Source: Cordia subcordata
Lineage: Eukaryota > Streptophyta > Magnoliopsida > Boraginales > Cordiaceae
NCBI GenBank assembly: GCA_028554755.1
Contig: JAPTOF010000025.1
Coordinates: forward strand, 744,001-808,000
DNA: 64,000 bases
Direction: 5' to 3'
The stretch's first letter is position 1, and the number at the start of each line of letters is the position of its first letter. The notes beneath the pieces are model-generated. The model was not told where the DNA came from. It made no database searches and worked only from the letters and a program-made list of their open reading frames with translations. A program made the translations under genes and the position numbers. Positions 83 through 36,233 of the stretch are shown here, one piece after another.

Positions 83-189
83 TTTTGCGAATTAAGTAAG
101 ATTTTTATTAAGCGCAAAATTCGGTGCAACACCATCCAAACCCTCAAACTGAATGATACAACATTACAAAGCAAGACAAGTTTGAGGGT
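83..189 (-). promoter_or_regulatory. 3' UTR two-hairpin module of H1
   Basis: Stem 1: 140-150 pairs with 179-189 over 11 bp (ACCCTCAAACT with its complement) around a 28-nt loop containing TTGTAT when read on the minus strand. Stem 2: 83-89 pairs with 113-119 (TTTTGCG/CGCAAAA), so the element's CGCA terminus and first tail A bases are base-paired. Equivalent structures occur in H2-H5. A role in recognition by a partner RT is inference. Confidence 0.65.
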
Positions 190-263
190 AAGCAAATCAA
201 AACAAAAGGGAAATCCCAAGAAGAAAAACAATAAAGAGAGATCCAATCAAGTCTCGAAACGCA

Positions 264-2604
264 TCAAATGGGGGTAGGATTAGGATGTTCAAGTCTGGTC
301 CGAGAGCCTTCACGTGTGTTCCCAATATTCCCTTCCCATCTATCTTGCTCAACACTCAAGTTATCTTCAATCAATTGCACTTCATTTTGATTTTCATGTT
401 GTTGGACGTCCAAATCAGCAACATATGTGTCATTTTCTTGGATCATGACATTTTCTTCATCACTCTTTATCAAATCATCCTTTACTTTTGATATGCCTTC
501 ATTTGCATTAAGGACCGCAAAACGATTATTTTCCAACTTTTCTTCAACAATAGGGGCTGGATTCTTTGCCAAACTTGGAGCTTGAACCGAATCAACCACC
601 ACATTGGAGAATGGGGTAGGATTAAAATTCTCAACTTTCTTCCACACTCTTCTATTCTTTGCCATTTTCCAACTATCATTCTTCTTTTCAATCACTTTAG
701 GTGCTTGCCTAGGAGCATTTTTTGGGGGACCACTTTGACACATAGAAAGGGAGTGTCCAACAATCTTGCAAGAAGGGCAAACAAGCGGCTTCCATGCATA
801 TTCAATGTCAATTTTGGCCCAATCCCCATTTCTTAATTTCACATAGGTGTGATCAGGGAGAGACTTTGAAAGATCCATTTCCACACACACTCTTGCAAAA
901 CCAACAAAGGTACGTGATTCCGTAAGCTTATCCATTTGTAATGGCATGCCAATAGTACTTGCAATGTAGCTAAGACCTCTTCGAGTGATAAGTGCGCATG
1001 GAACATTTCTAAGTTTGACCCAAAGTGGCACTTTTTCCCATCCAAAGTTTATCATTTGTGCATTAGCATCCCACTTTCTTAATAAGAGAGGCCGGTGATT
1101 AACGTGCCAAAGTTGTTCCATAACTTGATTGCAATACTCATCATTTTTAAACTTAAAAACAAAGAACCCATTCTCAGCCGATTTAATCTCCACCTTGCCA
1201 AATTTTTTCCAATGATTATCAACCATTTTCCTAAGGAGAAAAAATGGGGGAGGCCTATCTAAGAATTGGCCAATGAAGCAATGTTTCCAATGCCCATCAC
1301 CCTCTTCAAAGACATCACTTGGTGGGGCAGCCCTATTCTTCCATTTTCAACAAGAGAATCATGAAAATCAAGTTTAAGAGAATGCATGAGGTTACCTACA
1401 AGATGTTCCTTCCAATCCAAATTTGATGCCCATGCCGAGTGTTGAAGGGGAGCTTGAAATGATGTGCTTGCTGGCTGGGATGTAGAAAAAGTATTTTGCT
1501 GAAGTTGGTCACAAAACTTCCTCCATTTGCTTCATGAATTCCTTGAGAAAAGAGAGGAGTTGAGGTGTAATGATTTCCTTGAAAATGATGCTCTTGACCA
1601 ATTGAAATTGCATGGAGATGTCCATGGGAGAGGACATGATTTTGGTTGATTAAACGCTGAGGAGCTTGCTGGAGGTCATTTCCATTTGGAACTAGTAGAG
1701 AATGACAAGTATTTTTTAAAGAGTCATAAGTGGCAGCAATGTCAAAAGGAGGAGCTGACATGGACGAAGAGGCTGAACGCTTTTGTTGGCCAAAAGAGGA
1801 GCCATTTCGGTATTGATTCTGGGAAGAGCTTTGCTGATTTGTTTGCATAGGTGATGTGGCATCATTAAATGATGTGGCAGCCACATATGTGCCATGTTCA
1901 AAGCCACATGGACCAGCAGATTTGCCACTCTGCTGAATACACAAAAGGGGAAATTCTTCTAGGTTAGCATCAAAAGTGTGATTCAAATTGAGTGGTGGGC
2001 CTCCCACATTGGAATTTGAGAGATGTGCTGTCATATTATGGTGTGGGGAGGCACAAAAGAGGTCCTTTTGGCCTGAAAAAGTAGCCGCAAAATCAGGTTT
2101 GTCATGTACCTTACCAACCGAGAAACCATTGGGTATTAACCAGTTTGCTTTTCCATCTTCTTCAATCGTACCAGAACTTCCGTGGCTGAAATTTTGGGCA
2201 TTTGCAACGAAATTTTCAAGCAAAATAGCATGGTTTTGACCATGAGAAATTGCATTTTGAGTTGGAGAAGAGACAAGCTCGTTTGCAAGATGCATTTCAG
2301 CACAAATAGACGCCGAAGTGTTTTTGCTGATTTGAAGTTCATTTTCGTTCATATTAGAATGATGGAAATCAGATTTTGAAGCATGAGAAATGTTCTCCAC
2401 ATTTTGAAGATGAGAATGAAAATCATCATTTTCTTTTGGCACTAATCTTTCACGACTTTTTCTGGACAAACTTTGCACAAGTTCCTTCTTGGAGATATTG
2501 TATTTTTCCTCAAGGAATTTTCCCAAACCAATTGAGGGGGGGCAAATTTTTCTAGCTTCTTCAATTTTCTTATCCAAATATTCAAAATAAACTTGAGCTT
2601 GAGG
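264..2604 (-). pseudogene. H1 ORF1, middle and C-terminal part
   Basis: Read on minus from 2604 to 264. A low-complexity Ser/Asn/Gln/His-rich middle region is followed by a DUF4283-type domain (WHVNHRPLLLRKW, then SRTFVGFARVC) and an intact knuckle CPSCKIVGHSLSMC at about 730-780. An acidic C-terminal tail ends at 264. The middle region (1396-2577) and the DUF4283 part (264-1226 and just upstream) are in different frames. The expected NAW..LDWKEHLVGN segment near 1390-1450 is readable only after a frame change, so there is at least one indel. ORF1 of L1-type elements is an RNA-binding nucleocapsid-like protein (family knowledge). The N-terminal part is at 3989-4272, beyond H2. Confidence 0.8.
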
Positions 2605-2633
2605 AGATGAATGCTTACTTTTTTTTTTTTTTT

Positions 2634-2744
2634 TTGCGGGTTAAGAAAGTTTAAATTTCAACGCAATTTTGGTACATCCAAATGTTACCCCTCAAACCTA
2701 ATCAAATACAACAATACAAAGAAAAGCACAAAGTTTGAGGGGTA
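2634..2744 (-). promoter_or_regulatory. 3' UTR two-hairpin module of H2
   Basis: Stem 1: 2686-2697 pairs with 2733-2744 over 12 bp (TACCCCTCAAAC and its complement) around a 35-nt loop with TTGTAT on the minus strand. Stem 2: 2634-2638 pairs with 2662-2666 (TTGCG/CGCAA) at the tail. Confidence 0.65.
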
Positions 2745-2857
2745 GAGCAAAAGAAAAAGGGGGTTACAACCCATTACAAATGAATTTTCCTAGCATAAAA
2801 GAAGTGACAAAAACCAAGCAAGGAAACAAAGAAGAAACAAGGAAAAGAAAGAACCAA

Positions 2858-3972
2858 TCAAGTACTCGGGTGGGAAAGTGGTGAATCCAAAGCACCCGAG
2901 GGACCACCATCCCTAAGATCTTCAAATAAACCAAAATTCCCATCCTCAAGTCCATCTTTCTCAACATGTTCTACCGAATCAGCAACTTCAGCCCCAATAT
3001 TCACAAATTGTGTGGTCTTCAAATCCACCTCTATATTTCCTTCATTATGGGCAGCAAGCTCAAAATCTTTACTTGAGACACCATCATCTTTCCTCAATGG
3101 CATATTTCTTTCTTCAACAACACAATTTGACTCTTCATTTGCAATGCTTGTCTCATTATTTTCCTTGCCAAAGCACTCTCCATATGATATGTTGACTTGG
3201 TTAATATTTGCATTTCCTTCATCAGCCCTAAGAGCTTCAAATTGGTTAAGGGAATGTGCACGTGCAATGGTAGACATGGCGCCAATTCGCTGTCGTCTTT
3301 TATCCTCGACCACTTTCCATTCATATTGAGAACGGGGGTTCCTTGCTTCATTTGCTTTCTTCTTATCAAATGGCTTTTGAATCCCCATTAAATTTTTTGG
3401 GCAAGATGCAAGATTGTGTCCAATCACTTTGCAACTAGTGCATTTTAGAGGCTTCCAAGCGTATTCAATATCAATCTTTGCCCAAGAGCCATCTCTAAGT
3501 CGGACAAAGGTGTATTCCGGCAAATCTTTTTCAAGGTTAACTTCAATACAAACTCGAGCAAATCCAACAAAAGTACGTGATTGTGTGAGAGAATCCATTT
3601 GAAGAGGTGTTCCAATTGTGCTAGCAATATAACTAAGCCCCCTTCTAGTCATCAAACTACATGGAACATTTCTTAATTTCACCCAAAGAGGGATTTTATC
3701 CCATTCAAAATTAAAGATTTGAGCATCCAAGTTCCATTTTCGAAGCAACAAAGGCCTAAAATTAACATGCCATAATTGGTCAAGGGCTTTGTCACAAGCT
3801 TCTTCACTTTCGAATTGAAAGATGAAGAGACCATTCAAGCAAGTCTTAATCTCAACATGACCAAATACTTTCCAATGGTTATCAACAAACTTCCTAATCA
3901 AGAAGAAAGGAGATGGTCTTTCAAGAAATTGACCAAGTAAACAATGCTTCCAACAACTATCTCTTTCCTCAA
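2858..3972 (-). pseudogene. H2 ORF1 fragment (DUF4283 and zinc knuckle)
   Basis: An open minus-strand frame of 347 codons from the first Met (3901) to 2858. It continues upstream without a Met to the truncation point at 3972 (residues like LLGQFLERPSPFFLI). DUF4283 landmarks are WHVNFRPLLLRKW, PLWVKLRNVPCSL and SRTFVGFARVC. The knuckle CTSCKVIGHNLASC is intact. The C-terminus is acidic. The reading frame is undamaged but lacks the N-terminal half. It belongs to the same ORF1 lineage as H1, H3 and H5 (shared SRTFVGFARVC). Confidence 0.8.
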
Positions 3973-3988
3973 AGATGAATGCTTACTT

Positions 3989-4272
3989 GCCGCAGCTGAT
4001 TGCTCATTTTGCTTAAAAGATGAGGCCAAAAATCCCATGTTGCTTTGTTGGTTGAGATCCATGCAATAGTTGGTTGAAAACTCCTCTTCCTCCATTAAAG
4101 ATGAAGATGAATGTTCAGCCATGGCATGTGAAGTTTCAGAAAATCCAGCCCCATTTCCTAGTTGTTCATTAAAATTTTGAGAGATTTCTTCATAGGATTC
4201 TTTAAGTTTTTCCTTGATAGCCTTGATCCTAGCACTTTTACGGGAGGAAGTGTGATTTTTCTTCTTAGGCAT
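3989..4272 (-). pseudogene. H1 ORF1, N-terminal part
   Basis: ATG at 4272 opens MPKKKNHTSSRKSARIKAI, a basic N-terminus like the MGKKKRSS.. start of H5 and MGRKKK.. start of C1 and C2. It is cut by H2 at 3973-3988. A low-complexity region follows. The start is chosen from this conserved Lys-rich N-terminus and its position about 70 nt below the leader uORF. Confidence 0.75.
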
Positions 4273-4287
4273 GGTTGAAAGATGAAT

Positions 4288-4344
4288 TTAAGAAGATAAA
4301 GTTTGGAAATTGAGTGTAGTAACTCTAGAGAGAAGGGAGAGCAT
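4288..4344 (-). CDS. Upstream ORF in H1 leader (MLSLLS...)
   Basis: An 18-codon uORF beginning M-L-S-L-L-S lies 15 nt upstream of the ORF1 start. Its start context (AAATATGCTCTCCCTTC) matches the leaders of D1, H3 and H5. Whether it is translated is unknown. The same 5' motif could be a promoter element. Confidence 0.45.
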   Translation of the reverse strand: MLSLLSRVTTLNFQTLSS

Positions 4345-4383
4345 ATTTCTAGAGAGAGAAATTTTTTGATCCAAGAGAGTTAC

Positions 4384-4448
4384 TCCATCCCACAAATTTT
4401 TGGGGAAAACCAAAAGCCAAAAGAGTATTCTCAATGAAGTTCCAATTT
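4384..4448 (-). other. RT fragment joined to the 5' end of H1
   Basis: On minus, about 65 bp encode NWNFIENTLLAFGFPQKFVGW, the RT block that follows KAFDSL in ORF2. It is in the same orientation as H1, lies outside the H1 leader and inside the H1 target duplication. H1 itself has no RT. About 20 nt of unassigned sequence (4362-4383) separates the two. The best explanation is template switching from H1 RNA to an ORF2-bearing LINE RNA during integration. Confidence 0.65.
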
Positions 4449-5022
4449 TTTGCGGATGACCTTTTCATCTTTTGTAGGGGAAACTTGGAGTCCATAAATC
4501 GCATTTTGGAAATTTTGAAGGAGTACCACTGGTTCTGGGGACTCAAGGTAAACAGCAACAAAAGTGATGCATTCTTTGGGGGTGTTTCACAAAATGTTAA
4601 GCAACTCATCCTCGGAAAACTTGACTTTCAAGAAGGTCAATTGCCTATAAGGTACTTAGGTGTGCCTCTGGTCACCCGCAAACTTCGAAAAGGAGATTGT
4701 GGACCTCTCTTGGAAAAAAATTAATGGGAGAATTGAGCAATGGACAACTAAGTGGCTTTCTTATGCGGGAAGACTTCTCCTCATCAAATCCACTCTTCAA
4801 CAAATTTGTGCATATTGGGCTAGAAACTTACTCATACCTAAATGCATCATCAAGGAAATTGAATCAAAGTCTAGTGCCTTCCTTTGGAGAGACACGGGTG
4901 CAGGATTGCTTGGAACAACATTTGTATGCCACAGGATGAGGGTGGCTTGGGAGTTAGATCTCTGGAGAAATCAACCACACTTACTTCATCAAGGTTTTTG
5001 GAGAATGTATGCTCACCGACAC
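4449..5022 (+). pseudogene. T unit U0, RT C-terminal part up to the fusion
   Basis: Resumes with FADDLFIFCRGNLES and continues through the RT thumb to FWRMYAHR, where it is fused to ORF1. A run of seven A at 4714-4720 puts LLEK out of frame with INGRIEQW. The same A7 is present in all T units read, so it predates amplification. Confidence 0.8.
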
Positions 5023-6787: not shown

Positions 6788-8562
6788 TTTTTTTTTTTTT
6801 TTTTTTTGCGGATCAAGTAGTAAATTTTATTGCTGCAAATCAGATTTGTACAAGTACAAAGATGGTGAAAAACCATCAAAACCTAAACAAGTAAATCATC
6901 AAGTTTCCGCAATTTACAAAGGGATTTGTTCAAATGTGCTGAAGGAAACCTCCTCTTACAAGAAATTTTGACTCTAACATCATTGAAAATTGTGTTACAA
7001 ACAAATTCCTCTGTCTTTGCTTCGTTCTTGAAGATTCTTCTATTTCTTTCCATCCAAATGTGATAGACAGAGCCCAAGAGATGCTTGAGGATTGATGCTT
7101 TCAAGAGTTTATCATGAGCAAATGGAGTGATATAGAAGAAGATAACTTGCCAACAAATAAGGCTTTCCGAACAAGAGTTAAAGACAAGCCAAATCTCCAA
7201 ATACGTCTAGTAAAACTACATTCAAAAAAGAGATGATCTCTAGTTTCACATCCCATATAGCAAAAGATGCAAGTGGTGCTATTGTTAAGCCCCCAAAATG
7301 AAATTCTGAATCTTGTAGCAAGGCGGTCATGATGTGCAAGCCAAACAATAAAATTATGCTTTGGGTTGTGACCCTTGTGCCGAATGATATTATGACCGCT
7401 GAAATGATTTCCTTTGATTCTAATATGCTCCCATGTATGTTTGAAAGAAAATTCACCATTAGGAGAAGGAGTCCAAGCAAAAGAGTCTTGTGAATTCTCA
7501 TCAAGCGCAAAGCGAGGTGCTTCAATAGAGGAGAGTCAGAAGGCCAACTCCAAGAGCCATTGAGAAAAATATCACTAACCTTTGCAAAGATGGATGGGGT
7601 AGGAGAGATGTTGCTCCAATGTTCCAAAAGTGGTCCATCTTTATGCCAATTGTCAATCCAAAAGTGAGTGTTCATACCATTCCCAATGTAGTGCTTGGTA
7701 AAGTTTCTTGCATGGTCACGGCATGAAAGGATAGCCTTGAAAATCCAACTAGTATCATGAGATGCTTGCAAAGTCCAAATGGAAGAATCCTTGATATAAT
7801 TGCAATGAATCCTTTGGCTCCAAAGTGATTCTTTAACAGCATACATTCTCCAAAAATTTTGAGCATAAAAACTTTGTTGATTTCTTCAATTCTTGAATGC
7901 CAAGACCACCTTCATTGAAAGGTAAACAAAGATCTTTCCAAGCAACTTTGGGGCTGCACTCTCCAAAGGAAAGCTTTAAATTTTGATTCAATGGCTGCCA
8001 AGAGACTTTTTGGAAGAAGGATAGCATTTGCCCAATATGCACAAATTTGAATGAGAGTGGACTTGATAAGAACAAGTCTACCCACAAAGGACAGCCAATT
8101 ATTGCACCAAGCATCAAGTCTCGAATTAATCTTCTCCAATAGTGGGTAGCAATCCGCCTTCCAAGCTTCCTGGACACAAGAGGGATGCCTAAATACCGGA
8201 TAGGAAGTTCACCCTCATGGAAGCCCACTCTTCGAATAATGGCATCTTTGTTATCATTAGAAATTCCCCCAAAGAAAATGTCACTCTTGGATGGATTAAT
8301 GTTCAGCCCGGAGAGAGTAGCAAAGGTCTTCAAAGTGTCCATAATGCAATCAATAGATGATAAATCACCTTTGCAAAAAATGAAGAGATCATCCGCAAAA
8401 CAAAGGTGGTTAAGCTTTCATCTTATGCATTTAGGATGAAAGTGGAATCGTGGGTTATCTTCCAGCTTATTCATCATACATGAGAGCACCTCCATACAAA
8501 TGACAAAAAGATAAGGCGAAATGGGATCTCCTTGCCTTATACAATTAATGCTATTATCTTGC
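6788..8562 (-). mobile_element. M1: 5'-truncated LINE tail, minus strand
   Basis: Poly-T at 6786-6807 is followed by the reverse of a CCGCA terminus. The target duplication is 6770-6787 and 8563-8580 (18 bp, one mismatch). Coding remnants on minus (6883-8540) run from GDPISPYLFVICMEVLS through FADDLFIFCKG and the RT thumb to the zf-RVT domain (CIFCYMGCETRDHLFF), in three frames, so it is frameshifted. The 5' junction holds about 22 nt of filler (8541-8562), of which 14 nt match host DNA 50 bp further on. Confidence 0.85.
6883..8540 (-). pseudogene. M1 ORF2 remnant (RT end plus zf-RVT)
   Basis: Open pieces are 7833-8342, 7178-7846 and 6883-7200, in different frames. The RT FADD box is near 8390-8400, the RT thumb (LPIRYLGIPLVSRKL) near 8170-8220, and zf-RVT near 7230-7280. 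It ends with NKSLCKLRKLDDLLV, the typical C-terminus of these ORF2 proteins. Confidence 0.75.
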
Positions 8563-8580
8563 AGCTTCGTTCACAATGTT

Positions 8581-10796: not shown

Positions 10797-11708
10797 ATTG
10801 GTTCTTTGAATATTTGGGGTCTAAACTCCCCTTGCAAACAAAAAGAAGTGAAGGCTTGAATCACCAAGAACAAATTGGATAGTTTTTATTTTTTGGAAAC
10901 CAAGGTCAATGAGAACAATGCCATTGCCAACTATTTCAGCACCTTGGGTTTTGCTAATCACACGGATGAGATTATAAGAGGAAGACTTTGGCTCTTTTGG
11001 AGAAATCATCTCAAAATCAACATCCTTGGTGGCATGGAACAAGGTATTCTTTGTCATCTCTCCATTGCTGCAAGTTGCTCTTTTTCTAATGGATTTATCT
11101 ATGGAAAGAACACTCCCTCATCGAGGAGATTGCTTTGGAAAAAGATTAAAATTTGGAGTGATTGGTGTCTGGATGGTCCCCTTTGCATTATGGGTGATTT
11201 CAATCAAATCCTTCATGATGGGGATAGATCCACTTCCTGGAGTATTCCATCTAGTGCATATGATTTCAAACAATGTGTTGCTCAAGCCAAATTACACGAA
11301 ATAAGAGCTTTTGGTCCGCACTTCGCATGGTCCAACCGAAGCTCACATGGAAACTACATTGCAAGCAAAATCGATCGGGCACTCGTTAATTCACAACGGA
11401 TGGGGCACATGGAGAACTCTTTCCTCTTGGTTGACAATCCTGGTATTTTAGATCATTGCCCTCTCATTTTGCATACCAACTTGGTTATGCATTCCTCCCC
11501 AAAGCCATTCAAATTCTACAATGCATGGACATCTCATGAATTCTTTTTACCTTTTGTGGAAAAGCATTGGAGTGCACGGGTTTTTGCAGTCCAATTTTCT
11601 TTTTATTCCAAAAGCAAAAGTATCTCAAGAAGGCATTGAAGGAGTTAGATAAGACTTATTACTCTTGCATCCCACATCAATTTGGTCACCACAAGGATGA
11701 CCTTAGAT
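10794..11708 (+). pseudogene. T unit U2 ORF2, endonuclease part
   Basis: ATG at 10794, shared TGA at 10857-10859, then EN with GDFNQIL, SKIDRALVN and LDHCPLI. A 2-nt loss near 11586 shifts the frame. H3 interrupts at 11708. Confidence 0.75.
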
Positions 11709-11732
11709 AAGTGAATTCATCACTAGAGTAAA

Positions 11733-11777
11733 ATGCTCTCACTTCTTACTAACTTGACCACCATCTTCCACCATTGA
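11733..11777 (+). CDS. Upstream ORF in H3 leader (MLSLLT...)
   Basis: A 14-codon uORF (MLSLLTNLTTIFHH) near the 5' end of H3, in the same relative place as in H1, H5 and D1. Confidence 0.45.
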   Translation: MLSLLTNLTTIFHH

Positions 11778-11819
11778 CCACCACTTTTCGACCACCATCC
11801 GCATTTCTTTTCCTCTTTC

Positions 11820-14234
11820 ATGGGCAAAAAGAAATGATCCAGTGCATCCAAAACTAGAAAGAGTGCAAGACTTGCTGCAAAATCTGAACTTTGCAATTAT
11901 GAAGAAGAAGAAGAAGATTACACTTCGGATTCTATTATGGAGCTCCAAAATTCTTGTGACACCATTAACAAAGTCATGTCATGCTCTAATGAAAGGCATT
12001 ATAGTTCGGGTAAGCTCTCTTCCCCTTCTAGTGTTCACGAGCTTGAAAGAAACCTTGATAATGCAAAACGTGAATTAGTGCAAAGCTTAGCTCGTAAGAA
12101 CACTCCCATTTCTAAATCTAGAGCTTCTGTTTGTGGTAGTTCAGCAAGTTCGGGTTTTGGCACTAAAAATTTGCTTGCTAGTAATGATTTCCTTCCTAAT
12201 GAGGTGTGTGATAAGGTTGATGATCCTTTGCTTCAAGAACTTGAACACCAATCAGCAATGGCTGTTCCTATGCCATCTTCCTTTTGTCTCAATGATAAAA
12301 CTCTATCTTTGGGTCACACTTACTTCGAAGTAAAAAATGGTGAATATGGTACTCATAATGATCCTTGTGGCATGGAGAAGAATGTTTTTGCATCCTCTTT
12401 TGATAATCAGCCATCAAATATCCAAGGATCAGTTCCAAAATCACATACGGATGGCTTGGTTTTGGAAGAAATGGCTTGTCAAACACTACCTGGCAGTCCA
12501 TGCTCTTTTTTAGCGGGTAATAACCATATGATAGATTCTTTTTCAGCTCAAAAGTACTCCTATTCAGCCTCTAAAGCTCAGAAGTTGACAACTCATCACA
12601 AGGCATTAATTGGGGATGCTGCTGCCCCTTGGTCCAAGCCGAAGGATAATGTAGCTGCCGGGGAAAAGCTTTATCCACCAAATAACTTGGTCCAGATGCT
12701 TGATGAAGCAAATATTAAAAATGGTAGTGATTTTGAATCTCATTTCCCTCCCTTGCTTGCTCGGTCATGCCCTACATATTTGAGTCAACCTTTCAATAGA
12801 CTATCCCCTCATGATATGGAAGCCAAGTCAGCCCCCTCTCATTTTTATTTTGACGGTAATTTACCTCCAGAAGGTCAACACTTTGCTCATCTGCAACAAG
12901 CTAATCCCATACTAGCTCCTACTAATGATGAGCCACAACAAGCTTGTAATTCCCAATCTACAGCAAATATGGCAAGGAATTTGGACAACAATTGGAAACA
13001 AAAATGCTTTAGAGACTCTTCTCATGGCAATAGGGCAAATTGGAATATTGGTAACCAAGTGTAGCCAAATCAAAATGCTTTTCAACAGCAAGCTTGGAAA
13101 TCAAATAAGGATTGGCAAGGCACTTTTGTTGGTAATCTTTCTCACTCTACTAAGCTCGATTTTGTTGAACCTTTCATTGAAAATGATTTCATTGGAGCCA
13201 TCCCACCCGATGAGGTTTACCTTGAAGGGGATGATTACTACAAACATTGCCTTATAAGCCAATTCCTTGAAAAACCCCCACCCTTCTTCCTTATTCGGAG
13301 AATGGTAGATGTCCATTGGAAATTGTTTGGTAGAGTTGAAATCAAATCAGCTGAAAATGGGCTTTTTGTGTTTAAATTTGAAAATGAAAACTTTTGTGAG
13401 CTTGTTCTTGAGCAAATGTGGCATGTAAATCACCGTCCCCTCTTGCTTAGACGATGGGATTCAAATGCTCAACTTATGCACTTTAGTTGGGAAAAAGTTC
13501 CTCTTTGGGTGAAGCTCCATAATGTCCCTTGCTCCTTGATCACTAGAAGGGGACTTAGTTATGTGGTTAGCACGCTTGGCATTCCTATTCAAATGGACAA
13601 GTTAACGGAATCCCGAACCTTCGTGGGATTTGCTCGTGTTTGCATTGAGATGGATTTATCCAAGAGCCTCCCGGATTTTCCATTTGTAAAACTTAGGAAT
13701 GGAGAATGGGCTAGGATTGAAGTGGAGTACGCAGGGAAACCTGTGGTTTGTCCTTCGTGCAAGATTGTTGGTCATAGTCTTTCTTCACGTCCAAATGCCA
13801 CTCAAGTTAATGTATCCCAACAAAATTCTCGATTTGTTAAGAAAGAGGGTGAATGGAAGAATCCCAAGTCAAAGACAATATGGAGGAAAGTCACGAATGT
13901 GAATCATACACCATTTGCTAGTGTCGTCATCAAGTCTAAAGTTGTTAATGAAGCAAATGAGAAAAACGACTTTCCGAGCACCATGGAAGGAAATAGTTTT
14001 GCTGCCCTTAACACATATGAAAATGGTAATGAAATTGCTTCACTTGAGACTCCAGTTGATGAGGATAACTTGAACAAGAACGAGATTGGAAATAAAGTGA
14101 CTAAAGGAGATGATTTTGATGTTGCTGATTTTGATGTTCAAATTCTTAATAAAGCCAATGAAGTTCATTTGAATGAAGAACAATGGAACGTTGAGCAAGG
14201 CAATAGGGTGGGAAGAATTTCCAGCCATACTTGA
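11820..14234 (+). pseudogene. H3 ORF1 (804 codons, two nonsense codons)
   Basis: ATG at 11820 gives MGKKK, then TGA at 11835-11837 where H5 has Arg. The frame continues through a Lys/Arg-rich N-terminus, a long Ser/Asn-rich low-complexity region and a TAG at 13062-13064. It then encodes DUF4283 (about 13300-13660: WHVNHRPLLLRRW, PLWVKLHNVPCSL, SRTFVGFARVC). The knuckle is CPSCKIVGHSLSSR: the last zinc-binding Cys is replaced by Arg (TGT to CGT) near 13790. An acidic C-terminus follows. Everything is in one frame, so only point lesions separate it from an intact gene. No ATGA overlap or second ORF follows the stop. Confidence 0.85.
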
Positions 14235-14340
14235 TCACACTTGGTTTGTTCTCATTGTACTTTCTTTTTGGAACTTGTTTGTTTGTTTTTGATTAACTTT
14301 TGTTGGTTTGGGAGACTCTCTCCTCTTTGTATTTTCTTGC

Positions 14341-14442
14341 CTCTCAAGCCTTGATTTGATTGAATTGCTGTATCCATGGCTTGAGGGTTTTAAATGGCTT
14401 GTGTCCATATTTGCGATTAATAAAAACTTACTTAATTCGCAA
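14341..14442 (+). promoter_or_regulatory. 3' UTR two-hairpin module of H3
   Basis: Stem 1: 14341-14350 pairs with 14378-14387 (10 bp including one G-T wobble; core CTCAAGCC/GGCTTGAG) around a 27-nt loop containing CTGTATC. Stem 2: 14411-14416 (TTGCGA) pairs with 14437-14442 (TCGCAA), spanning the terminus and first A bases. AATAAA-like sequence lies at 14419-14424. Confidence 0.65.
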
Positions 14443-14449
14443 AAAAAAA

Positions 14450-16184
14450 AGGATAACCTCAGATTGGTACAAGTTGACATTCTCAATGGGTTTGTTAACA
14501 AGTAGAACATTAACCAAGAAAAGGAGATCATGTAGAAGATTGAAGAACCTGAGAGCATTCATAAACACATGCCTCACCAAAAATCTAGACTCCAATGGAT
14601 TAAGCATGATGACACAAATTCAAGCTTCGTTCACAATGTTATAAAAGGAAGGAGAAGCAAGAGCACTATTAATGCTATTATGAATGATGATGGCACTCTT
14701 CTTACCCCTTGTAAGGATATCAAGGCTGAATTCATTTCCTACTTCAAGCATCTCCTTGGTACTCCAAAGTCTACACATGCCAATGTGAACACCATCAAAG
14801 GTATTCTTGGGAAAACTACTGGGGAGGATCTCTCGGCCAACCTTGCTGCACCTATCTCCTTGGACGAGATCAAGAACACTCTCTTCTCCATTAATCCCAA
14901 CAAAAGTCCGAGCCCAGATGGATTTACCTCACATTTCTATATGAATGCTTGGAATATTGTGGGTGGTGACGTTCTCAATGCTATTAGCTCCTTTTTCACA
15001 CCTCCCAGAAGCTCCTTAAAGAGATAAATGCAGCATACATTGCTCTTGTACCTAAAGTCCATAACCCCACAAAGGTTAAAGACTTTAGGCCCATTTCTTG
15101 TTGCAATATCATTTACAAATGTATTTCCAAGATCCTTGCAAATAGAATTAAAGCTTGCCTACCTTCTATTATTTCCTGGAATCAGTCTGCTTTTATTGAA
15201 GGAAGGCTCATCAACGAGAACATTCTTGTTGCTCATGACATATATAGAGGCTATTCTAGAGCCCATATCTCTCCAAGATGTGCTTTGAAAGTTGACATCA
15301 TGAAAGCTTTTGACTCTCTTAGTTGGGATTTCATTGAAACTACTCTTCATGCTTTTGGTTTTCCAAGCACCTTTATTGGATGGATTATGGCATATATTAC
15401 CACTCCTAGTTTCTCCGTCTCCGTTAATGGAAGTCTTGAAGGGTTTTGCAAAGGGGCAAATGGAATTAGGCAAGGTGATCCTCTCTTTCCCTGTATCTTT
15501 GTTATTCGTATGGAAGTTCTTTCATCCATGCTTAACAAGCTTGAGCATAACCCAAGTTTTGGGTACCATCCCAAATGTGCAAAACTGAAGCTAAATCACA
15601 TTTGCTTTGCGGATGACCTTTTCATCTTTTGTAGGGGAAACTTGGAGTCCATAAATCGCATTTTGGAAATTTTGAAGGAGTACCACTGGTTCTCGGGACT
15701 CAAGGTAAACAGCAACAAAAGTGATGCATTCTTTGGGGGTGTTTCACAAAATGTTAAGCAACTCATCCTCGGAAAACTTGACTTTCAAGAAGGTCAATTG
15801 CCTATAAGGTACTTAGGTATGCCTTTGGTCACCTGCAAACTTCGAAAAGGAGATTGTGGACCTCTCTTGGAAAAAAATTAATGGGAGAATTGAGCAATGG
15901 ACAACTAAGTGGCTTTCTTATGCGGGAAGGCTTCTCCTCATCAAATCCACTCTTCAACAAATTTGTGCATATTGGGCTAGAAACTTACTCATACCTAAAT
16001 GCATCATCAAGGAAATTGAATCAAAGTCTAGTGCCTTCCTTTGGAGAGACACGGGTGCTAGGATTGCTTGGAACAACATTTGTATGCCACAGGATGAGGG
16101 TGGCTTGGGAGTTAGATCTACTGGAGAAATCAACCACACTTACTTCATCAAGGTTTTTTGGAGAATGTATGCTCACCGGGACAC
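14450..16184 (+). pseudogene. T unit U2 ORF2, RT part up to the fusion
   Basis: Resumes in VQVDILNGFVNK with the shared TAG. RT then runs through NPNKSPSPDGFTSHFY, KAFDSLSWDFIETTLHAFGF, the GIRQGDP block and FADDLFIFCRG, the shared A7 shift near 15877, and FWRMYAHRDTLC before the fusion at 16185. The stretch 15285-15881 is continuously open. Confidence 0.8.
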
Positions 16185-16659: not shown

Positions 16660-16694
16660 CAGCAACATGCACATAAGGGGATTCTCTCTCTACC

Positions 16695-22516: not shown

Positions 22517-22593
22517 GTTTCTCCATTCCTTTTTCTGATTCTTGTACTTGAACGTTTCTTTTATGAAATCTTACTTACTCAGCAAAAAAAAAA

Positions 22594-28837: not shown

Positions 28838-29240
28838 GGCAAATTGTGATAAAAGATTGTTCTTCATGTTAGGGGGGTCAAAAAAAGACCCATATTGCTT
28901 GGGTGAAGATGAATTTCTTGAAGGCGAGTGTGAGATTGCAGCCATTGTTAAATCTTCTTGCTTTCTTCCAAGAAAATCCTCTCGGCCTTTATTCTCCAAG
29001 GTAGTTCCAAGCCTTGTTAGACCCTTGCATGTTGAGCTTTGGCCAAGAGGTATTTTGCCATCCTCATGGTTTTGTTCAATCCTTTGCAAGCTTGAGCTCG
29101 TTGGAGGGGTATTAGAATGATCCGTAAATGGTGAATAATCAAGCTTGGAGTTCATTGACTTTGGAGAGGAAGATTTCAAGGGTGAGAAACCCATGTTACA
29201 GCAAGCATCATAAGCAAGTTTGAATTCAAGGCTTGAGTTT
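28838..29240 (-). pseudogene. H4 ORF1 N-terminal part, inverted
   Basis: On minus it reads LEFKLAYDACCN, matching EFKEVYDA in the ORF1 N-terminal regions of D1 and C1, then Ser/Pro-rich low-complexity sequence to NLLSQF at the host junction. Sense ORF1 on plus continues from the following residues, so the segment was inverted during insertion. Confidence 0.72.
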
Positions 29241-30965
29241 GCAGCAGCCAAATTCAATGGAAAATGGTGGCATTTTGCTTGGGAATGGGTCGTGCATTGA
29301 GAATGAGGAAGAAAGAGAAAGGTGGTCTTTAACCAATGGTCACTCGGGTAATGTACAAAACTTTTTAGAAAATGAAATGCACTTTCCAGATGCTTTTGCT
29401 GGTCAAAATGACAAGTTTTCAGCAAGTCCTCACACTATTTCGACAGCTCATCTCTCAAATAACAAGGACAAATCTCAGCCATTCACTCAAAAATTGATTG
29501 ATTTTGAAAATTCTGGAGATTTCCCTCCACTTTGCAATCAGCTAAATAGTAGCCATTTTCTTGCACGTGATTACCATGTTAGGCCTGAGATGGCAGCCAA
29601 CTCACCTCATCTTGCCACCTCATCTTTAATGGAAATCAGCAAGCTTTCTTCCACAAGGCTCAACAACGAAAATTTGCACAAGATAATTTTTACAATAGCA
29701 ATTTTGGGAGCTTTGATGCAAACCCAAAATCTACCAATCAAAATCAAGATGGAGGGCAAGCAAGGCGTGCATTTGTTCAAGGAAGAAGAGAATACCCCCT
29801 AAATGCTTGGAAAAAACCTTTTAGACCAAGGTATGAACCTACTACTACTTCACCAAATTCTGATTGGGGTGGCCTTTTTGCTCAACATTGCACTTCTGAT
29901 TTTAAGCTTCAAGGACATATTACAAAAATTGTCGATGGTATTAGAGAGGTTGATGACCCTCCAATCGATATCTATGAAGATGGAGAAAACTTTTGGCAAC
30001 ATTGCCTTGTTGGGCAATTTCTTGGTGCTCTACCTCCTTTCTTCTTGATTAGAAACATGGTTGAACATGTTTGGAGAAGTTTTGGCAGAATGGAAATCTT
30101 TTCAAGCGGGAAAGGGTTATTTCTTTTCAAATTTGAGAGTGAGGAAAATTGCCAAAAAGTATTGGAGCAATTGTGGCATGTTAACCATAGACCACTTCCT
30201 TTGAGAAAATGGGAGCCAAATCTTGAATTTGTTAATCTTACATGTAACAAAATACCAATTTGGGTCAAATTGAGAGATGTTCCCTTGAGTTTGTGGTCTA
30301 GAAGAGGCCTTGGTTATGTTGCATCTTTTATAGGAAATCCACTTCAAATGGATGCATTGACGGCATCAAGAAGAAATCTTGAATTTGCAAGAGTTTGTGT
30401 TGAAATGAATTTGTAAGAAAAGCTACCGGAGGAAATCTTTGTGAAACTAAGGGATGGCTCTAGGGCTAGAGTTGAAGTTGAATATGCTTGGAAACCTTCC
30501 AAGTGTGATCATTGCAAGATGGTGGGGCATGTTGAAGACCATTGCCCATTGAAACCAAAACCCCATCCAATGCAACCTCCTGCTGCCCAAAATGTTCCCA
30601 AGCCTAATGCCAAGGAAGTTTGGATTGAAGTTGGCAAAAAACAAGTCTCTCGGGGTCAAAATGGTTCTTTGATAAATGCAGCAAGCTCTCCAAAAAAGAT
30701 GTTGGAAACAAACCCACAAGTTCAAAGAGATACGTGGCCTCGTTCTCCTAGTAGGTCTCCCCCCATTCAAAATGCTTCTTGCCCGATTATGAAGATTGAC
30801 AATCAATTTGAAGTTCTTGAAGATTCTATTGTCGAAAAGGATGAAGGACCAATTCTTGGAAATGATGGAGAAAATCAAGAATTCCAAGAAAAGGCTCAAT
30901 TTGAAGGAGTACTTGAAGGAACCGGGGGCAATGATGAATCGGAGATTTCCTTCCCTCCAAATTGA
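29241..30965 (+). pseudogene. H4 ORF1, sense part (DUF4283, knuckle)
   Basis: Low-complexity region with FENSGDFPPLCNQ, then a frame change and stop near 29800. DUF4283 (30045-30416: FGRMEIFSSGKGLFLFKF, WHVNHRPLPLRKW, SRRNLEFARVCVEM) ends at an in-frame TAA (30414-30416). The frame then resumes with LRDGSRARVEVEYAWKP and knuckle CDHCKMVGHVEDHC, and ends in an acidic tail at 30965. No ATGA coupling to a second ORF follows. Confidence 0.8.
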
Positions 30966-31045
30966 TTGTTGAGACTACTTTGTTTTGTTGCTTGCTGATT
31001 TGCTTGTTTTCTCATTGATGTATGCTTTGTTTTTCTTTTACTCTT

Positions 31046-31149
31046 CCCCTCAAGCAAAATTTGATTGTTTTATTTGTATTCTAGCTTGAGGGGATTTGTA
31101 GTTGTTGCACTCATTTTGCGATTTATATATTCTTACTTAATCCGCAAAA
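31046..31149 (+). promoter_or_regulatory. 3' UTR two-hairpin module of H4
   Basis: Stem 1: 31046-31055 (CCCCTCAAGC) pairs perfectly with 31084-31093, with a 28-nt loop containing TTGTATTC. Stem 2: 31114-31120 (TTTTGCG) pairs with 31143-31149 (CGCAAAA) at the tail. Confidence 0.68.
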
Positions 31150-31156
31150 AAAAAAA

Positions 31157-31372
31157 GATGATGAAGGAGAGTTTGTTGAGCCATCTCCACCAAGGATGGC
31201 ACAAAAATAGCAACCAAAACAATCAAATTGTTTCAAAGCAGTTGATAAGTTTAAAAATGGAGAGGATGAAGAAATTAGGCATACAACAAACTATGGCAGC
31301 CACTCGGATGAGCAAAATTCTGAAGGAAATGATGCTTTGGGCCCGAGGTCCAATCCCCCTTCTTGAGAAATG
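31157..31372 (+). pseudogene. T unit U4 ORF1, right of H4
   Basis: Resumes with DDEGEFVEPSPPRMAQK, then the TAG shared by U1-U4, to the ORF1/ORF2 overlap at 31370. Confidence 0.72.
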
Positions 31373-33320
31373 ATTGGTTCTTGGAATATTTGGGGTCTAA
31401 ACTCCCCTTGCAAACAAAAAGAAGTGAAGGCTTGAATCAACAAGCACAAATTGGATTGTTTTTGTTTTTTGGAAACCAAGGTAAATGAGAACAATGCCAT
31501 TGCCAACTATTTCAGCACCTTGGGTTTTGCTAATCACATGGATGAGAATGTAAGAGGAAGACTCTGGCTCTTTTGGAGAAATCATCTCAAAATCAACATC
31601 CTTGATAGCATGGAACAAGGTATTCTTTGTCATCTCTCCATTGCTGCAAATTGCTCTTCTTTCATTGGATTTATCTATGGAAAGAACACTCCCTCAACTA
31701 GCATATTGCTTTGTAAAAAAATTAAAATTTGGAGTGATTGGTGTCCTGGATGGTCCACTTTCCATTATGGGTGATTTCAATGAAATCCTTCATGATGGGG
31801 ATAGATCCACTTCCTGGAGTATTCCATCTAGTGCATATGATTTCAAACAATGTGTTGCTCAAGCCAAATTACACGAAATAAGAGCTTTTGGTCCGCACTT
31901 CGCATGGTCCAACCGAAGCTCACATAGAAACTACATTGCAAGCAAAATCGATCGGGCACTCGTTAATTCACAACGGATGGGGCACATGGAGAACTCTTTC
32001 CTCTTGGTTGACAATCCCGGTATTTCAGATCATTGCCCTCTCATTTTCCATGCCAACTTGATCATGCATTCCTCCCCAAAGCCATTCAAATTCTACAATG
32101 CATGGACATCTCATGAATTCTTTTTACCTTTTGTGGAAAAGCATTGGAGTGCGCGGGTTTTTGGCAGTCCAATTTTCTTTTTATTCCAAAAGCAAAAGTA
32201 TCTCAAGAAGGCATTGAAGAAGTTTGATAAGACTTATTACTCTTGCATCCCACATCAAATTGGTCACCACAAGGATAACCTCAGATTGGTGCAAGTTGAC
32301 ATTCTCAACGGGTTTGTTAATGAGTAGAACATTAACCAGGAAAAGGAGATCATGTTGAAGATTGAAGAACCTGAGAGCATTCATAAACACATGCCCCACC
32401 AAAAATCTAGACTCCAATGGATTAAGCATGATGACACAAATTCAAGCTTCTTTCACAATGTTATAAAAGGAAGGAGAAGCAAGAGCACTATTAATGCTAT
32501 TATGAATGATGATGGCACTCTCCTTACCTCTTGTAAGGATATCAAGGCTGAATTCATTTCCTACTTCAAGCACCTCCTTGTTACTCCAAAGTCTACACAT
32601 GCCAATGTGAACACCATTAAAGGTATTCTTGGGAAAACTACTGGGGAGGATCTCTCGGCCAACCTTGCTGCTCCTATCTCCTTGGACGAGATCAAGAACA
32701 CTCTCTTCTCCATTAATCCCAACAAAAGTCCGGGCCCAGATGGATTTACCTCACATTTCTATATGAATGCTTGGAATATTGCGGGTGGTGACGTTCTCAT
32801 TGCTATTAGCTCCTTTTTCACACCTCCAAGAAGCTCCTTAAAGAGGTAAATGCAGCATACATTGGTCTTGTACCTAAAGTCCATAACCCCACAAAGGTTA
32901 AAGACTTTAGGCCCATTTCTTGTTGCAATACCATTTACAAATGTATTTCCAAGATCCTTGCAAATAGAATTAAAGCTTGCTGACCTTCTATTATTTCTTG
33001 GAATCAGTCTGCTTTTATTGAAGGAAGGCTCATCAATGAGAACATTCTTGTTGCTCATGACATATTTAGAGGCTATTCTAGAGCCCATATCTCTCCAAGA
33101 TGTGCTTTGAAAGTTGACATCATGAAAGCTTTTGACTCTCTTAGTTGGGATTTCATTGAAACTACTCTTCATGCTTTTGGTTTTCCAAGCACCTTTATTG
33201 GATGGATTATGGCATGTATTACCACTCCTAGTTTCTCCATCTCCGTTAATGGAAGTCTTGAAGGGTTTTGCAAAGGGGCAAATGGAATTAGGCAAGGTGA
33301 TCCTCTCTCCCCCTGTATCT
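31370..33320 (+). pseudogene. T unit U4 ORF2, EN and first RT part
   Basis: ATG at 31370, shared TGA near 31434. EN has a frame change near 31745 (GCCCTGGATGG), then GDFNEIL, SKIDRALVN, SDHCPLIFH and the shared TAG (32325-32327). RT runs from HNVIKGRRSKST through NPNKSPGPDGFTSHFY, KAFDSLSWDFIE and the GIRQGDP block. M4 cuts it at about 33320. Frame shift near 32845, as in other units. Confidence 0.78.
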
Positions 33321-33869
33321 TTTTTTTTTTTTTTTTGCTGAGTAAGTAAGATTTCATAAAAGAAACGTTCAAGTACAAGAATCAGAAAAAGGAATAGAGA
33401 AACCTAACCAAGTATCTCATCTAATTTCCACAATTTACATAAGGCAATATTCAGCGCATTTGAAGGAAATTTCCTACCAAAGATAATACAAGTTCTAACT
33501 TCATTGAAGATAGTACTTGTGATTTGATCCTTCGTTTTTGCTTCTTGCTTGAAAATACGCTGGTTTCTTTCAACCCAAATGTGGTAAACGGATGCTCCAA
33601 GAAGATGCTTAAGGATAATAGCTTTCAAGTTATTTTCAAGAGCAAAAGGTGTGAGATAGGCACAAATTTCATCCCAACAAATCAACTTCTCTGGAACAAG
33701 GGAGATTGCAAGACCATGTCTCCAAATTCTGCGTGTGAAGCTACATTCGAAAAAAAGGTGATCTCTTGTTTCACAACCCATGCGACAAAAGATACAAAGT
33801 GGGTTTGCAATCAGTCCCCAACTTAATAATTTTTGAAGAGTTGAAAGCCGATCATGAAAGTTCTTTCAT
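33321..33869 (-). mobile_element. M4: short C-family tail, minus strand
   Basis: Poly-T 33321-33336 followed by the reverse of ACTCAGCA(n). The fragment of about 0.54 kb encodes the last 125 codons of a C-type ORF2 on minus (33404-33781: GCETRDHLFFECSF to LCKLWKLDEILG), closest to C1. About 8 bp of host were lost. The 5' junction carries AAGTTCTTTCAT (33858-33869), a copy of host DNA at 33874-33885. Confidence 0.82.
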
Positions 33870-34385
33870 ATGGAAGTTCTTTCATCCATGCTTAACAAGC
33901 TTGAGCATAACCCAAGTTTTGGGTACCATCCCAAATGTGCAAAACTGAAGCTAAATCACATTTGCTTTGCGGATGACCTTTTCATCTTTTGTAAGGGAAA
34001 CTTGGAGTCCATAAATTGCATTTTGGAAATTTTGAAGGAGTACCACTGGTTCTCGGGACTCAAGGTAAACAGCAACAAAAGTGATGCATTCTTTGGGGGT
34101 GTTTCACAAAATGTTAAGCAACTCATCCTTGGAAAACTTGACTTTCAAGAAGGTCAATTGCCTATAAGGTACTTAGGTGTGCCTTTGGTCACCCGCAAAC
34201 TTCGAAAAGGAGATTGTGGACCTCTCTTGGAAAAAAATTAATGGGAGAATTGAGCAATGGACAACAAAATGGCTTTCTTATGCGGGAAGACTTCTCCTCA
34301 TCAAATCCACTATTCAACAAATTTGTGCATATTGGGCTAGAAACTTACTCATACCTAAATGCATCATCAAGGAAATTGAATCAAC
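33870..34385 (+). pseudogene. T unit U4 ORF2, FADD box and thumb
   Basis: MEVLSSMLNKLEHNPSFGYHPKC, FADDLFIFCKGNLES, LPIRYLGVPLVTRKL, shared A7 near 34230-34236, then KCIIKEIES, where D1 joins. Confidence 0.78.
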
Positions 34386-34397
34386 TCTAGAGCCGAA

Positions 34398-34508
34398 ATG
34401 CTCTCCCTTCTCTCTACACACATCGCACTCGGCCACCATTGCACAACCATCCCCAACGCATCTCTCCTCTTCCCCTCTCTTTCTTGTACTTTCCTACTTC
34501 ATTGCTAA
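34398..34508 (+). CDS. Upstream ORF in D1 leader (MLSLLST...)
   Basis: A 36-codon uORF starting M-L-S-L-L-S at the same leader position as in the half-LINEs. It ends 41 nt before the ORF1 ATG. Confidence 0.45.
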   Translation: MLSLLSTHIALGHHCTTIPNASLLFPSLSCTFLLHC

Positions 34509-34549
34509 ACTATACAAATCAGTTTGGTTTCATTCTTGCACTCGTTGTT

Positions 34550-36120
34550 ATGGCCAACAACAAGAAGAAAAAGTCTTCCCCTCCAAGATCTAGTGTAAGA
34601 CTCAATGCACAAAAGGTTCCAAAATCTACTCCACCAAAGCTGAATTCAAAAAAGAAGAATTTTGAGCATGGGGGGTTGAACTAGCCTCTTCGCCCACTTT
34701 GAGTGAAGGTCCTTCTTCAACCTCTTTGGAGTTTAAGGAAGTTTATGATGCCATTAACTCTGGGAAGACTTTTGGCGACTTGGAGGAAGAGCAAAACAAG
34801 ACAAAAGCTACCATTGTTCAAAGCCTTATTCTTGAAGCAAATACTAATGCAGCCATGGAAGAAGCTAAAAGCTTGAAGATGCCATCGGGTGAAGGAGAAG
34901 GAGATCCTAAGGAGCTTATATCTAACGAGCAATGCTTTTGTCCTACGGGTAAAGAAAGCTGTAACCAAGAGACATTGCATCCATCTTTACCACTTGAATA
35001 TTGCATGATGGACAAAGAGGGTGCTTGTACTTTTGCTGAAAAGATGCCACAAAACTCCACTCAAGAGCCGACAACTCACCAACCATTTCCCAAGAATGTT
35101 CAAGACACAAAACTTCAAAGGCATTTTGATTTCCCTCCTCTGCCGGCCACTCATAAAATTCAAAGAGAAGGTCAAATGCAAAATAAGTCAAAGGATGACA
35201 TGGACTCCACTTCACAACCTATTTATACCTCAGCAAAACCCACTCAAGAAGCTTCACACGGCTCCAAGAAGCTTGAAGGCAGCAAACAAAATGCATGGAA
35301 CAAAAGGCCTCTCTTAAGGTATGAACCTTCTTCAAGCACCCCCACTTTGGATTGGAAGCAAGATTTTGGTGAATTCCTGGAAACAAATCTTTATTTGAAA
35401 GATGAATTTCAAGTTTTAACTAATGAAGGAATTAGAGAGGTTGTTGATCCACCACAAGATTTGTATGATGAAGGAGAAAGCTTTTGGTCTCATTGCCTTA
35501 TTGGACAATTTCTTGGTGCTCCACCGCCACTTTATCTCATTAAAAACATGATCTATAATGCTTGGTGGAAATTTGAAAGAGTTGATCTATATCCAAAAGG
35601 AAAAGGTCTATTTATGTTCAAATTTGAGAAAGAAGAATATTGTCAAAAAGTGCTTCAACAACTTTGGCATGTTAGTAATAGACCATTGCTTTTGAGAAAA
35701 TGGCAGCCACAACTTGAATTCATTAACTTCTCTTGTAACAAAGTTCCAATATGGGTGAAAATGAAAGATGTTCCTCTTTGCTTGTGGTCAAAAAGAGGGT
35801 TCAGCTACCTTGCTTCATTCATTGGAAAACCACTACAAATTGATGCTCTTACGGAATCAAGGAGGAATCTTGAATTCGCAAAAGTGTGCATTGAAGTCAA
35901 CCTTGAAGAGAATTTACCAAACGAAATCTACCCAAAGCTTAGAGATGGATCAAGAGCACGAGTTAGTGTTGAATATGCATGGAAACCAAATATTTGTACT
36001 CTTTGCAAAATGGTTAGGCACCTTGAGGATCATTGCCCTTCAAAGCCGAAAACAAGTACTCAAAAGACACTTGATGCAAACAAGGCCAACACATCAAAGA
36101 TCAATGATACTTGGAAAGTT
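34550..36120 (+). pseudogene. D1 ORF1, part left of H5
   Basis: ATG at 34550: MANNKKKKSSPPRSSVRLNA. A one-base indel in the G run at about 34670-34675 shifts the frame. From about 34684 it is open: LEFKEVYDAINSG, low-complexity region, RHFDFPPLPA, DUF4283 (about 35450-35960, WHVSNRPLLLRKW, PLCLWSKRGFSYLASFIG, SRRNLEFAKVCIEV) and knuckle CTLCKMVRHLEDHC. H5 cuts it at NDTWKV (target duplication 36102-36120 and 44486-44504). It continues at 44505. Confidence 0.82.
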
Positions 36121-36128
36121 TTTTTTTT

Positions 36129-36233
36129 TTGCGGATTAAGTGAGTTTATTAAAATCGCAATTTGTAACATGTACAACCCAAAACCCCTCAAGCCAAAGAT
36201 ACAACAAGATAAAGAAAATCACGGCTTGAGGGG
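36129..36233 (-). promoter_or_regulatory. 3' UTR two-hairpin module of H5
   Basis: Stem 1: 36184-36194 (CCCCTCAAGCC) pairs perfectly with 36223-36233 (11 bp), 28-nt loop with TTGTATC on minus. Stem 2: 36129-36133 pairs with 36156-36160 (TTGCG/CGCAA). Confidence 0.68.

Follow-up and report, generated by a model that had tools for sequence, protein, structure and literature searches.

Introduction

HAL1, the mammalian half-L1, is described as a non-autonomous derivative of the L1 long interspersed nuclear element (LINE) that codes only for open reading frame 1 (ORF1) (PMC5753468). In L1-clade LINEs and short interspersed nuclear elements (SINEs; ZmSINE2/3) of monocots, the conserved last 45 nucleotides (nt) hold a hairpin whose stem is followed by CGAG and whose loop contains UCU (PMC3747384). 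The tail stem-loops of zebrafish LINEs are recognised via the loop, a swapped stem still working, at about half the rate in one LINE, and binding of the ZfL2-2 stem-loop by the element's own ORF2 protein has been shown (PMC4176376). A conserved stem-loop in the 3' untranslated region (UTR) is likewise reported for human L1 and Alu (PMC5135761). Among plant elements, Celine, a centromeric LINE of poplar, has both ORFs, a DUF4283 ORF1, nested LINEs, poly(A) and target duplications of 10–30 bp, and DUF4283 is conserved among LINEs of diverse plants (PMC11288735). The present work concerns a hairpin in the 3' UTR of five ORF1-only retrotransposons (half-LINEs H1 to H5) located in a 64,000-nt stretch of nested LINEs from Cordia subcordata (C18:744001-808000 of a 472,264,809-base assembly of 62 contigs). 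This whole stretch is termed the window, and ORF2-bearing elements are termed ORF2-LINEs.

Like HAL1, the half-LINEs encode a LINE ORF1 and lack ORF2; unlike HAL1, they have a plant-type ORF1 (DUF4283), fall into several diverged families and carry a covarying 3' hairpin. HAL1 moves by target-primed reverse transcription, and we know of no such hairpin in it, its sequence having been left outside the searches made here. Membership of the plant L1 clade, compensatory changes in a 3'-end hairpin and a poly(A) tail are shared with the monocot L1 elements (PMC3747384), but the half-LINE hairpin occupies approximately -104 to -52, its loop contains UGUA, and it was observed in ORF2-less elements alone; inspection by eye of the hairpin alignment and its flanks showed neither a conserved CGAG nor a conserved UCU. 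As in the stringent-type LINEs ZfL2-1, ZfL2-2 and UnaL2, a conserved loop motif sits on a variable paired stem near the 3' end, but in those cases the stem-loop belongs to the autonomous element (PMC4176376), whereas the half-LINE hairpin was present at none of 29 ORF2-bearing ends in 264 kb. DUF4283 in ORF1, LINE nesting, poly(A) and target duplications are shared with Celine; unlike it, the half-LINEs have no ORF2, and the excerpted Celine account mentions neither a half-LINE nor a hairpin (PMC11288735). A literature search found no plant half-LINE with such a hairpin; subscription journals lay mostly outside its coverage, so no claim is made that none is in print.

A hairpin in the 3' UTR of five half-LINEs

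The five hairpins occupy the same place in each half-LINE, as follows, with scores from R1, a covariance model built from these five sequences.

140..189, minus strand: H1 hairpin, 11-bp stem, 28-nt loop with TTGTAT, 63.5 bits
2686..2744, minus strand: H2 hairpin, 12 perfect pairs (14 including a G-U), TTGTAT loop, 62 bits
14341..14387, plus strand: H3 hairpin, 10 bp including one G-U, CTGTAT loop, 61.3 bits
31045..31094, plus strand: H4 hairpin, 11-bp stem, TTGTAT loop, 60.4 bits
36184..36233, minus strand: H5 hairpin, 11 perfect pairs (13 including G-U at both ends), TTGTAT loop, 73.9 bits

For H1, H2 and H5 the minus strand of the window is the sense strand of the element. Coordinates, stems and loop sizes given in the initial annotation were all confirmed, with the refinement that the H3 stem, while of the position and size described, contains one G-U pair. 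Read in the sense of the element, the 3' arm ends at the 51st to 54th base ahead of the A-run and the 5' arm begins at the 100th to 109th, and UGUAU is present in all five loops, ending 6–10 nt ahead of TTGAG in the 3' arm. The pattern CTCAARCY-N20..42-RGYTTGAG, which H4 does not fit, occurs four times in the window against 0.01 expected. Comparison of the 67-nt hairpin stretch with 500 dinucleotide shuffles (fold test; floor p 0.002) gave p 0.002 for H1, H2, H4 and H5 and 0.018 for H3, with folding z-scores of -2.6 to -7.0, and 1000 shuffles of the hairpin 3' side (duplex test) gave p 0.001–0.004 for all five. When 70-nt windows along whole elements were ranked by z, the hairpin came top in H2, H4 and H5 and third in H1, and was not among the top eight along H3; by this sliding-window scan, H1 and H3 contain structures more unusual than the hairpin. 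R1 run on the window returned the five hairpins at 60–74 bits, as expected by construction, and the best other non-antisense match reached 12.8 bits; two matches at ORF2-LINE ends were at chance level (56961-56995, 9.1 bits, E 4.3; 6870-6906, 7.9 bits, E 8.4). No Rfam match above gathering score and, with ARAGORN, no tRNA was found in the window.

Compensated changes in the stem

The initial annotation had described stem differences between elements as compensated, and this is borne out. Between the close relatives H1 and H5, three double-compensated pairs are the sole differences in the 11-bp stem, with no breaks, and the probability of obtaining three complete pairs from six randomly placed differences is about 0.002–0.006. 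Across the five sequences 95% of cells are paired and four pairs show a double change. The covariation score was equalled by 3 of 500 shuffles, with marginal controls for the number of double-change pairs (as high in 49/500) and of further pair types (114/500), and a larger alignment was therefore made. This comprised 17 hairpins, the window five and 12 of 18 found in a wider sample (below), leaving out six near-copies; in one row (L048a) the 3' arm is out of register. In it 92.5% of cells are paired, 7 of 12 pairs show a double change (9/500 shuffles as high), and 22 cells are double-changed against 7.6 (sd 2.4) in shuffles, none of 500 being as high, and against at most 5 when the alignment was slid; the shuffles do not keep relatedness whereas the slid controls do. 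TGTA is found in 15 of the 17 (L048a and L038b lack it) and TGTAT in 12. Parsimony on the ORF1 tree, using the 14 hairpins with ORF1 rows, placed 3, 1, 1, 5, 3 and 1 Watson-Crick swaps in six columns, 14 in total, a count to be taken as a guide given a protein tree with weak inner nodes that is blurred by 3'-module exchange. Far from being absent, covariation in the 17-hairpin alignment exceeds both shuffled and slid controls.

All of the elements are homologous, so that five occurrences are not five independent facts, and an inherited sequence or chance palindrome without function might account for them. The compensated swaps, the conserved islands next to unconserved UTR described below and the shuffled and slid controls make that explanation extremely improbable. 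These data indicate that long-lived LINEs devoid of ORF2 have, in their 3' UTR, a conserved, base-paired RNA stem-loop that is under selection and acts in cis.

Restriction of the hairpin to ORF2-less ends in the sample

To the window were added 20 pieces of 10 kb from the same genome, taken from LINE-rich spots on four contigs and picked near H1 matches, a non-random choice, giving a total sample of 264 kb out of 472 Mb. R1, run with default filters, found 18 further hairpins in the added 200 kb (19.9–61.3 bits; next distinct match 12.9), making 23 in all. A second model (R2), built from the 17 aligned hairpins, returned the same 23, each scoring higher on the sense strand, with the next distinct match at 16.2 bits (E 0.14); as most of the 23 were in R2, this rescan is a consistency check and not independent.

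Fifty-four ends were classified by tblastn on up to 1.8 kb of upstream sequence, with a recount by nearest match; outside the window, hairpin ends had been located via the hairpin and other ends via the terminal box described below, which is a source of bias. The nearest upstream coding sequence was ORF1 in all 19 informative hairpin ends (the matches at L048 and L049 being short and weak), and no ORF2 match lay between ORF1 and hairpin in any of them. Three of the uninformative ends had less than 370 nt upstream, two of which also showed ORF1 once pieces were joined, and the fourth, L040 at 8595, matched nothing. The 31 non-hairpin ends consisted of 29 after ORF2, one after ORF1 and one, with 59 nt upstream, that was not judged. 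Informative hits of the five-hairpin model were thus all at ORF1-following, ORF2-less ends, and none of the 29 ORF2-bearing ends (about six families by our own grouping) had the hairpin, in agreement with its claimed absence from ORF2-bearing families and at odds with an equal frequency there. Fisher's test for 19/20 versus 0/29 gave p 1e-12, relatedness not being corrected for. Among ends defined by the box alone (n=27), nine had the hairpin and 18 did not, the latter being 16 ORF2 ends, the ORF1-following end at L040 and one not judged. In a count made from the ORF1 side, not starting from the hairpin, 61 ORF1 matches were followed by the hairpin at 451–658 nt (18), by an endonuclease domain at 504–908 nt (24) or by neither (19, many of them fragments and two being the insertion-split H5 and the L040 half-LINE); for H4 and L039a an endonuclease match also lies 954 and 1390 nt on, beyond their tails. 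The hairpin is therefore specific to ORF2-less elements in the 264 kb sampled.

Conserved 3' ends and the terminal box

Similarity among the five half-LINEs is 0.63–0.79 over the hairpin (0.50 shuffled) and 0.65–0.86 over the last 37 nt (0.52 shuffled), whereas the 100 nt 5' of the hairpin (0.56–0.67 versus 0.57) and the short stretch 3' of it (0.40–0.73 versus 0.48) barely exceed shuffled sequence. The proportion of synonymous differences (pS) is 0.67–0.83 in nine of the ten half-LINE ORF1 pairs and 0.23 for H1-H5, for which the ratio of nonsynonymous to synonymous change (dN/dS) is 0.16. Hairpin and tail end are conserved despite near-saturated synonymous sites in most ORF1 pairs. Directly before the A-tail stands a terminal box, shared in kind with ORF2-LINEs:

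87..102, minus strand: terminal box of H1, ATCTTACTTAATTCGC
2636..2651, minus strand: terminal box of H2
14425..14440, plus strand: terminal box of H3
31130..31145, plus strand: terminal box of H4
36131..36146, minus strand: terminal box of H5

The consensus of the box, common to half-LINEs and ORF2-LINEs, is CTTACTTAATCCGC, followed by A. In 10 of 12 family representatives, and in 15 of 18 window ends, CTTACTT (at most one mismatch) occurs within the final 17 nt, as compared with 0.026 in background; ends in the added 200 kb were located via the box and add no evidence for it. As the box is common to both classes, the hairpin is an addition to it that only half-LINEs were seen to have. Apart from the box and a TGTA near -45, the half-LINE 3' UTR had no match to ORF2-LINEs in the comparison made, and these two could be parts that a common enzyme or 3'-processing machinery reads.

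This distribution bears on mimicry of the stringent type, in which an unseen ORF2-LINE would have the same hairpin, its reverse transcriptase (RT) would read it and the half-LINEs would copy the 3' end of their donor. Known stringent LINE/SINE pairs work in this mode (PMC3747384, PMC4176376), and the sample is just 264 kb of 472 Mb, lies near half-LINE copies and was classified by upstream coding sequence. However, at least 40 genome matches exist for each half-LINE 3' end searched, as against no hairpin at the 29 ORF2-bearing ends, and half-LINEs and putative RT donors share the terminal box and not the hairpin, so that simple mimicry is quite unlikely unless an unseen ORF2-LINE has it.

The loop motif gives the main rival its best argument. 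The hairpin might be an RNA 3'-end element, a UGUA poly(A) signal or a means of RNA protection, that raises the level or correct ending of the mRNA and is unrelated to RT. Plant far-upstream elements lie 30–150 nt before the cleavage site, often with UGUA (PMC11245536), and UGUAU falls inside this range, its first base being at -71 to -75 relative to the tail in each of the window half-LINEs. TGTA also starts at -41 to -54 in all 13 window ORF2-LINE ends, which places the motif among the 3'-end signals that these elements have. Against such a role, H2, H4 and H5 already own a second TGTA at -41 to -49 (H1 and H3 have none there), a far-upstream element would need no stem kept by the compensated swaps counted above, and ORF2-LINEs of the same genome make 3' ends without the hairpin. 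We consider this explanation worth keeping in view although on balance doubtful.

Other features of the 3' ends were noted. At several window ORF2-LINE ends an AATAAA-like motif lies nearer the tail, a plant-type layout of poly(A) signals. TTGCG, complementary to the terminal CGCAA, is invariant in the window five (113-117 and 36156-36160, minus; 14411-14415, plus; same place in H2 and H4). A second stem formed by these two is not supported by the wider sample, in which, by eye, TTGTG is found in L049a and L032a and TTGCA in L037a, L040c and L048a with no matching change in the end. An equivalent hairpin across the ORF2 stop codon of ORF2-LINEs in general, which had seemed promising on inspection, was rejected: fold-test p was below 0.05 in two of 13 window ends (e56997, 0.006; e42421, 0.024), the duplex test gave values below 0.05 in two of 29 ends, both of one family (e56997, 0.016; L034 minus 3351, 0.035), with e42421 at 0.309, and a swap test lacked specificity. 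In one ORF2-LINE family a putative helix crosses the ORF2 stop, e.g. TGTGGAGA with TCTCCACA, in members at window 46227-46360 and 56997-57130 (minus) and in L034, L035, L041, L033 and L044. By duplex test p was at most 0.25 in all seven copies and, taken singly, below 0.05 in two, compatible with a weak, position-equivalent and different helix there.

The half-LINEs as mobile units

The elements that carry the hairpins, their target duplications and their principal ORF1 parts are as follows.

75..4448, minus strand: half-LINE H1, about 3.0 kb without nested H2, no ORF2 seen
62-74 and 4449-4461: H1 target duplication, GGTCATCC[A/G]CAAA, one mismatch
2619..3972, minus strand: half-LINE H2, 5'-truncated, nested in H1
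2605-2620 and 3973-3988: H2 target duplication, AGATGAATGCTTACTT
11709..14450, plus strand: half-LINE H3, 2.74 kb, target duplication at 11695 and 14451 with two mismatches
28839..31156, plus strand: half-LINE H4, first 402 nt inverted (5' inversion)
36119..44485, minus strand: half-LINE H5, about 2.5 kb of own sequence, split by an ORF2-LINE (about 36603-42432, plus strand)
36102-36118 and 44486-44502: H5 target duplication, CTTTCCAAGTATCATTG
264..1226, minus strand: H1 ORF1 part, DUF4283 and zinc knuckle (knuckle below Pfam cut-off)
2858..3901, minus strand: H2 ORF1 part, DUF4283
13302..14234, plus strand: H3 ORF1 part, DUF4283

Only ORF1-type frames were seen in H1, H3 and H5 (3.0, 2.7 and 2.5 kb without nested inserts), and the reading frames of H1, H3, H4 and H5 are broken. 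DUF4283 was matched at E 6e-27 to 1e-25 in H1, H2 and H3; in the window, ORF1 proteins have DUF4283, some with a weak zinc knuckle, and ORF2 proteins have RVT_1 and a weak endonuclease match. Target duplications flank four of the five half-LINEs (H1, H2, H3 and H5), two of the four with mismatches. None of its own was found for H4, the inversion of which (28839-29240) is defined relative to two 96–98% alike copies on C24 and C45; 5' inversion is known from L1-type insertion. The A-tail, target duplications and 5' truncation or inversion show the half-LINEs to be real mobile units, moved as ORF2-less elements by target-primed reverse transcription. The four 3' ends searched have at least 40 genome matches each, at 95–100% (H1), 89–100% (H3), 95–100% (H4) and 96–100% (H5) identity. 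The hairpin was present by pattern in 27 of 30 fetched H1-type loci, which form 19 tail-flank groups and, after merging of an array site and a repeated flank, 16 different targets. The H1 family has therefore moved recently, some copies being array duplicates.

The window also contains six ORF2-part copies that are 95–99% alike (4578, 9671, 15735, 27940, 34095 and 49179), with a 5'-truncated ORF1 fragment 440–445 nt after the ORF2 part in five of them; together they make up a satellite-like array, arranged head to tail, of a LINE chimera that has received insertions of other LINEs. H1-end genome matches at steps of about 15.7 kb on C30 fit such arrays. H4 (31157) and the ORF2-LINE ending at 22583 (22594) lie in different units of the array, each ahead of one common sequence, GATGATGAAGGAGAG.

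In a 41-row ORF1 tree, 16 half-LINE ORF1s form one group (100/100), with those of H4, L039a, L042a and L040b placed beside ORF2-LINE ORF1s; the best tree needs three label changes, and a single half-LINE clade is not rejected (p-AU 0.454). A smaller tree had the five window half-LINEs on one side of a branch (68/80), which was lost once the unlabelled P0001 was added. H4-type copies and H1 have a common N-terminal stretch (71–73% over 41 amino acids); one pair of matches to it (C31 3264-3821) precedes an endonuclease-linked ORF1 by about 1.8 kb, and the others that could be placed go with half-LINEs. L032a (L032:8249-8300) combines an H5-type 3' end (99/95) with an H3-type ORF1 (100/99), so 3' modules have probably been exchanged between half-LINEs. 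P0001, a 959-base contig in ENA, was the single protein-search match to half-LINE ORF1 and groups with H1, H2, H3 and H5, suggesting that half-LINEs may exist in another species or sample. No relatives were found in a search of viral and prokaryote contigs.

Discussion

Under the cis-preference of L1, the ORF2 enzyme is believed to associate, during its synthesis, with the mRNA that encodes it. Half-LINE RNA could not exploit this and would need a handle. A protein component of the retrotransposition particle, most probably the DUF4283/zinc-knuckle ORF1 protein of the half-LINE itself, would bind the stem-loop, the particle would bring a foreign ORF2 protein to the common terminal box and A-tail, and target-primed reverse transcription would start there. 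The ORF1 protein is preferred as binder because the half-LINE keeps it under purifying selection, with the ORF2 protein as a putative second choice. That the hairpin is bound by a particle protein and so brings a foreign ORF2 enzyme to half-LINE RNA is the favoured reading, proposed tentatively at a little short of an even chance. That no sampled ORF2-LINE has the hairpin speaks against plain donor mimicry and in favour of a requirement peculiar to trans-mobilised RNA.

Several observations weigh against this proposal or the reading of the hairpin beneath it. ORF2-LINEs have related ORF1s without the hairpin, so DUF4283 proteins generally do not need it, and the loop UGUA also fits a far-upstream element of poly(A) signals. 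One ORF1-following half-LINE end (L040, minus, end 4935) is without the 5' arm, and may be a dead copy. In the stem alignment, G-U and A-C cells number 10 and 7 (without the outermost pair), so that sense RNA as the selected strand is not settled. The fuller proposal is of a dedicated trans-capture stem-loop, absent from donors, to which the ORF1 protein of the half-LINE itself binds and so recruits a foreign ORF2 enzyme to the RNA; it is put forward as rather unlikely in all its parts together.

The hairpin bears on the open question of how LINE enzymes distinguish their own RNA, and of how enzyme-less elements evade that. With like terminal boxes in one genome, the hairpin only in the half-LINEs among the elements sampled, and natural hairpin variants plentiful (at least 40 genome matches for each of the four half-LINE 3' ends searched), a small RNA element is at hand with which to probe what trans-mobilisation needs. 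Were trans-capture true, a parasite of a parasite would have re-created cis-preference in trans and retained it while lineages split repeatedly and 3' modules were exchanged.

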